Position numbers and translations under genes: made by a program. A model generated the notes under the pieces. The model ran no database searches. It was not told where the DNA came from and saw nothing but the letters and a program-made list of their open reading frames with translations. From the NCBI GenBank assembly GCA_947474995.1, contig CANJNJ010000003.1, positions 1 to 64,000 on the forward strand: 64,000 nucleotides of DNA, written 5' to 3'. Each line of letters opens with the position of its first letter. The first letter of the stretch is position 1. This DNA is from Opitutaceae bacterium. GTDB lineage: Bacteria > Verrucomicrobiota > Verrucomicrobiia > Opitutales > Opitutaceae. This document shows, one piece after another, positions 10,627-39,587 of the stretch.

Positions 10627-10962
10627 GGCACCCGGCAAGGGGTAAAGGGGAGGCGGCATCCCATCCGGGTACCAGTCGCCGGTAAGCACTGCACGCCAAA
10701 AACCCGGGGTCTCTTATTCGTAACGAGGGCAAAGTGTCACGCGGAGGCGCGGAGTGGGACAAACAACAATCGCTTGGCTAGTTTTCCTCCGCGCCTCCTC
10801 GTCTTGAGCGAAGCGGGCGGGTGAGATTGGTTTGTTCCTGGCAGCTTAATTCGCGCAGAGGCGCAGAGCCGCGAAGGAAAATGCCTCCGGCATCTGTGCC
10901 ATCTGTCTGACTATTCGAATGAAGAGACCAAGATGTTTGCCTTGCTGCTTGGAGCGGATTTT

Positions 10963-11031
10963 TCACGCGGAGCCGTCGAGAGAAATGACGTCGATTAGCG
11001 ATTCTCACTCGCTCCGCGATCTCCGCGTGAG
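10963..11031. repeat. CACGCGGAG-family hairpin
   Basis: TCACGCGGAG at one end and CTCCGCGTGA at the other form an inverted repeat with a partly paired middle. The same arms recur at 10738-10801, 11167-11280, 21875-21959 and, less perfectly, 14834-14863. Confidence 0.8.
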
Positions 11032-11166: not shown

Positions 11167-11280
11167 TCACGCGGAGTCGCGGCCCTGCGGAGAAAGCGAG
11201 GATACAATGGAGGGCCGCGGTAGGATGTGTCCGGGTTGGCGATGCCCACCCCCTCCGCGCTCTCCGCGACTCCGCGTGAG
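11167..11280. repeat. CACGCGGAG-family hairpin
   Basis: CACGCGGAGTCGCGG and CCGCGACTCCGCGTG make a perfect 15-bp inverted repeat about 80 bp apart; the copy is closest to recA. Confidence 0.85.
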
Positions 11281-11322
11281 TCCGGTTTGAAGCGGTTGGT
11301 TACCACCCAGCCCACGAAAGCT

Positions 11323-11346
11323 TGACGTGTTCACTTGAACACGTCA
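11323..11346. promoter_or_regulatory. Putative LexA operator (SOS box) of recA
   Basis: TGACGTGTTCA-CT-TGAACACGTCA is a perfect palindrome with 11-bp arms, 138 bp upstream of recA. Its core TGTTC-ACTT-GAACA fits the TGTTC-N4-GAACA form I recall as the Verrucomicrobia LexA motif. A TTGACG that could serve as a -35 element overlaps its left arm (11322-11327), so bound repressor would cover the promoter. Confidence 0.75.
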
Positions 11347-12592: not shown

Positions 12593-12616
12593 TAGGGACG
12601 GCTCGCCGAGCCGTCC
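12593..12616. repeat. GTAGGGAC-family palindrome downstream of recA
   Basis: GGACGGCTCG-C-CGAGCCGTCC, 10-bp perfect arms. It shares its core with copies at 8936-8987 and 31395-31450. It could fold as a hairpin at the recA mRNA end but lacks a U-run. Confidence 0.8.
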
Positions 12617-33811: not shown

Positions 33812-33886
33812 AGTCGTTCGTCTTTCCGCCTGCAGGCGGAAAGATTGACCCGCCAAATTCCGCCTGAAGGCGGGACGACGAACCCG
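33812..33886. repeat. GTTCCGCC-family compound palindrome
   Basis: GTCGTTCGTCTTTCCGCCTGCAGGCGGAAAG followed by TTCCGCCTGAAGGCGGGACGACGAAC. Two inner palindromes are enclosed by outer arms. It occupies the gap between convergent genes, as a terminator-like structure. Confidence 0.8.
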
Positions 33887-36188: not shown

Positions 36189-37544
36189 TCACTTATCAGC
36201 GCGGCGCGAAAGGGTAATAACGCACTCGAGATGCCGGGTCTGGGGAAAGAGATCGAACGGTTGAGCCGCCGTCAGCGTATAACCCGCGGCGAGGAAGTGA
36301 GTGAGATCGCGCATCTGCGTGGCCGGATCGCAGGACACGTAAACTACCGCCCGCGGGCCAAACGCGAAGAGCTGCCCGAGGAACGATTCGTCACACCCTT
36401 TCCGCGGTGGATCGATGATCACGACGGTGTCGGCCGCAGGAAATTCCAATCCGGAAAAAATCTTCGCCGCATCGCCGGCCTGAAACATCGCGTTCGTGAT
36501 GCCGTTGGCCGCCGCGTTTTCGCGGGCGAAGCGCACACTGCTTTCGCTGATTTCGATGCCCGCCACCCGCTCAAAGGCGGACGCGGCGGAGAGCGCGAAA
36601 AGCCCGCTCCCGCAATAGGCATCGACCAGAAACCGGGCCCCGCTGGCGGCCGCCTGCTCCCGCACGTGGCGCGTGAACGCAGGCAGGATGAAGGGATTGT
36701 TCTGGAAAAAATCCCGGGCGAGAAAATGGAGCCGCAGGGTCGGCGAAGCCGCGCTCGGCTGTGAGCTGAGGGTTGAGGTCGGAGAGTCGATCCCGGCAAT
36801 GGTTTCCGTGACCACGGCATCGAAATCGGTGGTGACCACGCCGCTGGCCTCGCGCAGCAGCAGCGTGGCACCGCGCAGATAGGTCGCGGCCCGCGCCTGC
36901 ACCGAAGCCCGCACTTCGGTGAGCCGTTGATTGATTCCTTCGGTGGCGATCGGGCAGTTCGGCACGTCGACGAGGTCGAAACGGGTGCCTTGGCGAAGAA
37001 ACCCGATCGGAAACGGCCTCGCCGTTTCCGCCTCCTTTGCGGCGCCCGGCGCCGCAAAGTGTGGCGTGATCTTCGACCGATAGCCGAATTGCCGCGGCGA
37101 AGGAATCACCGGGGCCACGGGAAACGTAATGCCCGCCATGTGCTGCAACAGCTCGGCCACCTGGCGCTGCTTCCACGCGAGCTGGGCGGGATAAGCCAGG
37201 TGCTGGTATTGGCAGCCGCCGCAGCGCCCAAAGAGCGGACACGTCGGCGCCGTGCGCTCCGGCGAAGGCGTGAGGACCTCGAGCAAGTCGGCTTCGGAGT
37301 AATTCTTGTGATTCCGAAACACCCGGACCCGCACCCGTTCGCCCGGCAGCGTAAAAGGCACCATGATCACCCATTTTCCCGCCGCGCCCAAAGGCGTCGT
37401 GTCACCTATTGGGTGACCCGGGGCGTTTGGCACGGGTTCGAGGTCGACGCGCGCGAGGCCGGAACCGAGGTTCGTAAGCGTCACGATGTCCAGTTCGAGT
37501 TCCTGGTGATAGGCGAACGGGTAATCGTTGCGTTGCTTTTTCAT
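36189..37544 (-). CDS. RumA/TrmA-type RNA (uracil-5-)-methyltransferase
   Basis: Start placed at the ATG 37544 (MKKQRNDYPFAYHQELELD); 451 residues. A TRAM-like N-terminus leads to the Fe-S cysteines CPLFGRCGGCQYQHL, with FGYRSKITPHF, RFLVDAYCGSGLFALSAA (SAM motif), VVIIDPPRKGCDESFL (catalytic region) and YVSCDPATQMRDL. It makes m5U in 23S rRNA or tRNA. Two stretches look like late insertions: NAPGHPIGDTTPLGAA near residue 35, encoded by a palindromic repeat, and DSPTSTLSSQPSAASP near residue 265. The ORF extension upstream overlaps the divergent SpoU gene and is not coding. Confidence 0.92.
   Translation of the reverse strand: MKKQRNDYPFAYHQELELDIVTLTNLGSGLARVDLEPVPNAPGHPIGDTTPLGAAGKWVIMVPFTLPGERVRVRVFRNHKNYSEADLLEVLTPSPERTAPTCPLFGRCGGCQYQHLAYPAQLAWKQRQVAELLQHMAGITFPVAPVIPSPRQFGYRSKITPHFAAPGAAKEAETARPFPIGFLRQGTRFDLVDVPNCPIATEGINQRLTEVRASVQARAATYLRGATLLLREASGVVTTDFDAVVTETIAGIDSPTSTLSSQPSAASPTLRLHFLARDFFQNNPFILPAFTRHVREQAAASGARFLVDAYCGSGLFALSAASAFERVAGIEISESSVRFARENAAANGITNAMFQAGDAAKIFSGLEFPAADTVVIIDPPRKGCDESFLGQLFAFGPRAVVYVSCDPATQMRDLTHFLAAGYTLTAAQPFDLFPQTRHLECVITLSRRADK
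37401..37417. repeat. GTCAYCYATTRGRTGAC palindrome inside the RumA homologue
   Basis: GTCACCTATTGGGTGAC. It resembles the perfect palindrome at 38882-38906 inside oleD, and both are read in the same frame (HPIGD versus HLLDD). Confidence 0.6.
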
Positions 37545-38536: not shown

Positions 38537-39587
38537 TTCCGCCCCGCCGCAAGTGCTCGATTAATTCCGCCGTGCCTGCGGCCATCGTCACGCGCGGCAC
38601 ATATCCGAGGTCGCGGCGCGCCGCGGTGAGATCAAACCAATGTTCCTTGGCGAGCTCCGCCGCGATAAACCGGGTCATCGGCGGCTCGCCCCGCAGCGGC
38701 AGGAGGCGCCACGCCCCCTCGCACACAGCGCCCAACGTCGAAGCGGCCCGGAGCGAAATCCTTTTCGTCACGCGCGGTTCCCCCAGGGCGTTTAGCAAGC
38801 CATTAATCCAATCCCACAGGACGACCGGCTCGCCGTTCGTAATGAAAAAAGCCCGCCCCCCCGCCGCGCGCGGCCCGGTCGGTTTGTCATCTAATAGATG
38901 ACAAACTTCCAAGGCCCGTTCGGCGAGGAGATGGGCGTCGACGGCGTTTTCGACGTGAACCAGGTCCACGCGATTTTTCCCGGCGCCCACGATCCGGAGC
39001 CGGCCGGCGCGGGCGCGCGCCAGGATTCGCGGGACCAAATGGGGATCGCCCACGCCCCAGATGAGATGCGGGCGAAGCGCCACGGTCTGCAGCGCGGAAG
39101 AATGGGCAGCGAGCACTTCTCGCTCGGCGATCGCTTTCGTCAGGGGATAGGGACTGGGGCAGGCCGATGTCCGGGGCAGCGACTCATCCGCTCCCGCCAG
39201 GTCGAGGCCATTGTAAACGACACTCGGGGTGCTCGTGTAGATCAGCCGCCGGACGCCATGCGCGCGACAACCGTCGAGCACGGCGCGGGTGCCTTCCACA
39301 TTGGTGCGAAAGAACTCCTCGTACCGACCCCAGACGCCGACCCGGGCCGCCACGTGAAAGACCGTTTCCATCCCGGCACAGGCCGCGCGAACCAAATCGG
39401 GCTGGTCCAGCGAGGCCCGGATAAACCGAACGCCACGCGATTCAAGATCCGGCGCCGGCGTGCGGCCCAAGAGAGTCACGGCGCGACCAGCTGCCAGCAA
39501 TCGCTCCACCAGCCGACGGCCGAGGAAGCCCGTGCCGCCGGTCACGAGAACCTTGCCGTGTGATGTGTGACTCGTGACGTGTGACAA
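38532..39587 (-). CDS. oleD: OleD-like 2-alkyl-3-oxoalkanoate reductase (olefin biosynthesis)
   Basis: 351 residues; the only workable start is a TTG at 39587. NAD-binding VLVTGGTGFLGRRLVERLL, VFHVAARVGVWGRYEEFFRTN, RRLIYTSTPSVVYNG, SPYPLTKAIAEREVL (YxxxK), VALRPHLIWGVGDPHLVPR and ITNGEPV match OleD of the head-to-head olefin pathway, which reduces the beta-keto acid to a beta-hydroxy acid. The start MSHVTSHTSH is encoded by a tcac repeat, and CHLLDDKPTGPRAAGG before AFFITNGEP appears as an insertion encoded by a perfect palindrome. It follows oleC by about 50 bp. Confidence 0.88.
   Translation of the reverse strand: MSHVTSHTSHGKVLVTGGTGFLGRRLVERLLAAGRAVTLLGRTPAPDLESRGVRFIRASLDQPDLVRAACAGMETVFHVAARVGVWGRYEEFFRTNVEGTRAVLDGCRAHGVRRLIYTSTPSVVYNGLDLAGADESLPRTSACPSPYPLTKAIAEREVLAAHSSALQTVALRPHLIWGVGDPHLVPRILARARAGRLRIVGAGKNRVDLVHVENAVDAHLLAERALEVCHLLDDKPTGPRAAGGRAFFITNGEPVVLWDWINGLLNALGEPRVTKRISLRAASTLGAVCEGAWRLLPLRGEPPMTRFIAAELAKEHWFDLTAARRDLGYVPRVTMAAGTAELIEHLRRGGK
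38882..38906. repeat. Perfect 25-bp palindrome inside oleD
   Basis: GTTTGTCATCTA-A-TAGATGACAAAC: 12-bp perfect arms around one base, inside the oleD coding sequence at a position where comparable proteins seem to have a short loop. Confidence 0.9.

Follow-up and report, generated by a model that had tools for sequence, protein, structure and literature searches.

A long palindrome before recA as a predicted LexA operator in an uncultured genus of Opitutaceae

TGTTC-N4-GAACA is reportedly the LexA-binding motif of the Verrucomicrobia and is said to occur there as overlapping tandem sites at lexA. The LexA box of Gram-positive bacteria (B. subtilis type) is GAAC-N4-GTTC, and the E. coli box is CTGT-N8-ACAG. 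We examined a palindrome upstream of recA in a 64,000-nt stretch of DNA (the window) from an uncultured member of the Opitutaceae (Verrucomicrobiota), whose genome of 5.24 Mb is assembled in 261 contigs and is 96% complete.

The site shares its core, spacing, phylum and genes (recA, lexA and a mutagenesis cassette) with the Verrucomicrobia motif, but this genus keeps a longer 16-bp form, GTGTTCA-NN-TGAACAC, the recA site overlaps a candidate −35 element, and the set of exact sites is minimal (two). The Gram-positive box has the same half-site (GAAC/GTTC), but with the half-sites in the opposite orientation; the E. coli box is also a LexA operator in the recA promoter but differs in sequence and spacing. 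In two relatives (G029, locus L268; G030, locus L265), LexA-type sites upstream of lexA overlap in tandem, matching the arrangement said to occur in the Verrucomicrobia, and their overlap forms GAAC-N4-GTTC. A more distant relative (G054) has GAAC-N4-GTTC at both recA and lexA. The Verrucomicrobia motif is attributed to Erill et al. (2016; Front Mol Biosci 3:33), a paper that PMC8565304 cites.

At the level of sequence, the comparison confirms a LexA-type SOS circuit in this uncultured genus of Opitutaceae and defines its operator more precisely, as 16 bp. Taken as a whole, the evidence is best explained if the palindrome is a LexA (SOS) operator of recA of the ordinary type, a reading that we consider very probably correct. 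A LexA dimer bound to positions 11327–11342 would abut the −35 hexamer TTGACG and block RNA polymerase; upon DNA damage the RecA filament would trigger LexA self-cleavage and so derepress recA. The same LexA would repress its own gene together with imuA, imuB and dnaE2 downstream. Binding, repression, LexA cleavage and induction are here presumed by analogy with the known LexA family.

The palindrome before recA

The palindrome is 24 bp long, its two perfect arms of 11 bp each flanking a 2-bp centre, and the recA start lies 142 nt downstream (Table 1). Apart from the copy that it encloses, the window has no TGTTC-N4-GAACA, even with one mismatch allowed. Counting arms from 11 bp upwards and loops of 0–8, the window has four inverted repeats, this one included, versus 0.3 per Markov-resampled 64 kb, and such a palindrome arose in the 200 bp before recA in one of 3000 resamplings. 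The palindrome had been picked out from the sequence alone as reaching well beyond the TGTTC-N4-GAACA core, and both the letters and the resampling bear this out. The overlapping −35 element proposed at the same time is supported by the invariance of TTGACG among congeners, though inspection of the recA promoter found no acceptable −10 element.

Table 1. Features of the recA upstream region, in window coordinates
Feature	Position	Strand	Basis
24-bp palindrome	11323..11346	.	sequence TGACGTGTTCA-CT-TGAACACGTCA; chance test
LexA-binding core TGTTC-N4-GAACA (predicted)	11328..11341	.	kept in 24 congeners
Conserved 16-bp operator GTGTTCA-NN-TGAACAC (predicted)	11327..11342	.	found at both recA and lexA in the genus
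TTGACG, candidate −35 hexamer	11322..11327	+	overlaps left end of the palindrome; invariant in 24/24 congeners
recA, 367 aa	11484..12587	+	Pfam RecA, E 7.3e-132; TIGR02012, 508 bits

Several other repeats lie in the window. An 18-nt repeat resembling TCACGCGGAGGCGCGGAG occurs before recA in several copies and in both orientations (10737–10754, 10851–10868, 10963–10980, 11167–11184 and 11262–11279). Directly after the recA stop codon, a perfect hairpin with 10-bp arms (12596–12616; GGACGGCTCGCCGAGCCGTCC) possibly marks the end of the recA transcript. Three further perfect inverted repeats with 12-bp arms are found at 33821–33844, 37035–37059 and 38882–38906, against an expectation of 0.3 for arms of 11 bp and longer.

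The lexA cluster and the motif across the genome

Exact TGTTC-N4-GAACA occurs at only two places in the genome, recA and lexA. Because composition predicts 2.2 occurrences in 5.24 Mb, the count alone proves nothing. Both sites have the 16-bp form GTGTTCA-NN-TGAACAC, for which 0.007 occurrences are expected genome-wide. The non-random features are the location of the sites (recA and lexA), the longer 16-bp form and the conservation in congeners. With at most one mismatch there are 42 places, versus 22 for a reversed-pattern control; as additional LexA targets these one-mismatch sites were rejected, since long reading frames contain many of them and few precede a plausible start. Among the genes at the one-mismatch sites, no SOS gene, and in particular no uvr gene, was recognised.

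The lexA site (C69:5546–5559) ends 2 nt before the lexA ATG, consistent with autoregulation. The lexA product has a LexA helix-turn-helix (HTH) and an S24 peptidase domain (143.8 bits versus a cut-off of 110.95). With the operator in the place of any Shine-Dalgarno sequence and TTGC(T/A/C)T ~13 nt ahead of the operator, the lexA mRNA may be leaderless. A second LexA-like HTH is encoded elsewhere in the genome by an 89-aa frame (L004; G000:C231:1172–1348) that is too short for a peptidase domain.

The genes lexA, imuA, imuB and dnaE2 follow one another in this order on one strand, the imuB-like gene encoding a Y-family polymerase. Both lexA and imuA were located in 22 genomes; in 20 of these, imuA lies behind lexA on the same strand, at a distance of 106–2104 nt. 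In G006 and G008 imuA lies away from lexA and has its own TGTTC-N4-GAACA (TGTTCGTTTGAACA) ~40 nt upstream. That imuA has an operator of its own precisely where it is detached from the lexA cluster is good support for a genuine regulon. The mutagenesis cassette appears to be under LexA control, and its co-transcription with lexA would be as in the known family.

The sequence-only reading, which placed recA under LexA control, had named absence of the motif from lexA and other SOS genes as the observation that would count against it. The motif is present at lexA, the mutagenesis genes lie downstream, and the recA and lexA sites are kept across the genus, all of which supports the proposed control. 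Of the genes suggested for a genome search, lexA carries the motif and imuA and dnaE2 follow it; no uvr gene has an exact site, these being confined in this genome to recA and lexA.

A third site in this genome is the symmetric variant TGTGC-N4-GCACA (C15:12932–12945; AACG-TGTGCAGATGCACA-CGTC), between divergent fdhD and PA0069-family radical SAM genes. The same gene pair has an exact TGTTC-N4-GAACA in six congeners, and it is probably repressed by the same LexA. In G017, an exact LexA-type site (L216:1501–1514) lies 17 nt before a patatin-like gene, possibly an SOS-linked defence gene, that scores 330 bits against the DS2_1 anti-phage phospholipase family, under the cut-off of 400.

Conservation in the genus and the meaning of the long symmetry

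The recA site is present in 24 recA promoters of the genus, where it reads CTTGACGTGT[T/G]CA-NN-TGAACAC. Aligned in the orientation of recA, the sites conform to C-TTGACG-TGT[T/G]CA-NN-TGAACA-C. The outermost G..C pair of the 16-bp operator is kept at recA in 24/24 and at lexA in 25/25 genomes, the latter count including TGTCC-N4-GGACA variants. In congeners the position of the lexA operators is unchanged (2 to about 9 nt ahead of the ATG), and their flanks are free except for the G...C pair and what the neighbouring start codon imposes. Since the lexA operators keep only this one extra base pair, GTGTTCA-NN-TGAACAC is taken, from these alignments, as the conserved operator. The symmetric double change TGTCC-N4-GGACA is found at lexA of G019, G007, G010, G021, G009, G014 and G001 (L114–L119 and L109); where their recA promoter was read, these congeners keep TGTTC-N4-GAACA at recA.

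The sequence-only reading suggested that the extra symmetry reflects tighter binding at recA, as would be expected if LexA, or two LexA dimers, contacted the outer bases of the full 24 bp. Two observations lean this way: positions +15 to +18 on the right of the recA sites carry 0.6–1.0 bit versus about 0.3 bit for most of the sequence beyond, and the fdhD/radical SAM variant site is also flanked by ACG...CGT. The two flanks, however, behave differently. Every base of TTGACG on the left is invariant, whereas the right side has a single invariant base, its first C, and CGTCA is found there in just 8/24 congeners, replaced in the others by CGTGC, CGTCC, CTCCA, CTTCA, CGCCA, CCTAA or CTATC. Beyond the first flanking pair the lexA operators share neither extension, and two relatives (L142, L144) keep TTGACG intact although the core of their recA operator has decayed. 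The left extension therefore behaves as a −35 hexamer, and a function for the full symmetry seems unlikely. The unusual length of the palindrome would mainly reflect overlap with the −35 element rather than a stronger repressor site, which illustrates how a long palindrome can arise at recA. The right extension appears to be kept weakly and irregularly, a little above background, and may make a small contribution to binding.

That the palindrome acts instead as an RNA hairpin in the 5′ region of recA, whether leader element or terminator, is very improbable. The strand does fold well (−27.9 kcal/mol, z −5.4), but so does any long palindrome, and the hairpin was rejected as a leader or terminator because it has no T tract and matches no Rfam family, and because its core is invariant at recA rather than covarying; the same core also stands before lexA. 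A coincidental palindrome, bound by no regulator, would agree with the exact 14-bp motif being no more frequent than composition predicts, but we give this almost no credence in view of the location at recA and lexA, the conservation in 24 congeners and the operator that accompanies relocated imuA. The LexA operator remains the preferred reading of the site.

Control of recA elsewhere in the Opitutaceae

RecA matches place the window in the Opitutaceae, but the motif itself is only a partial guide to the family, being absent from most other Opitutaceae recA genes; several of these genomes have LexA. G022, assigned to the genus but remote from it in the RecA tree, carries the operator at lexA and lacks it at recA. 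An Opitutaceae recA on a contig filed under Rubrivivax (Pseudomonadota; L139, JAIYCN010000067.1) encodes a protein identical to that of G014 over the compared region; the contig is probably mis-binned.

Ten other Opitutaceae (G057–G066; L143, L153, L155, L156, L161, L163, L165, L167, L171 and L186) share before recA a block of the form CTCC-TGACATAACGC-TGTCA with a TAGGAT-like hexamer behind it. The box TGACATA-N4-TGTCA precedes recA in 10/10 and uvrA in 7/10 of these genomes, where it occurs one to six times per genome, versus none in the genome of the window. In several it is also found before glyoxalase-like or SnoaL-like genes, some of them directly behind a WYL gene. A LexA HTH match is absent from 9/10 box genomes and present in 9/10 comparison genomes, with the proviso that draft genomes may miss lexA. 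A single clade of the RecA tree holds seven of the ten, so the association of the box with loss of LexA does not represent ten independent events.

All ten box genomes encode WYL-domain proteins; the two that were scanned have an HTH-WYL-WCX architecture with PafC-type HTH matches. Similar WYL proteins are also found in some genomes that have no box. A mycobacterial promoter is given in PMC5656591 as tTGTCRgtg-8 nt-TannnT, and TGTCAGTG-N8-TAGGAT resembles this PafBC promoter, but the fit is close for just some of these genomes. Turnover of recA control within a single family emerges from this comparison; it includes a LexA-less clade that has a candidate damage response of WYL type. We regard as evenly balanced the proposal that recA control has been swapped across the family, such that LexA-less Opitutaceae with TGACATA-N4-TGTCA at recA and uvrA, PafBC-like geometry and a PafC-like HTH-WYL-WCX regulator would have a LexA-independent damage response. 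On this proposal the operator in the window would be one state of the swap. A literature search found no paper on a LexA-independent Opitutaceae box, which is not proof of novelty.

No single palindrome common to all other Opitutaceae recA promoters was found, several small groups having their own, and the RecA tree alone resolves the family too poorly for operator gains and losses to be counted. Upstream of recA, L145 (TTGATACGTGAGACA-TCATC-TGTCTCATGTATCAA) and L147 have a long, nearly perfect palindrome with a TTGA −35-like end. In L137 and L138 the recA upstream region contains an AGACA-N5-TGTCT palindrome, different from the LexA motif, near TTGACG.
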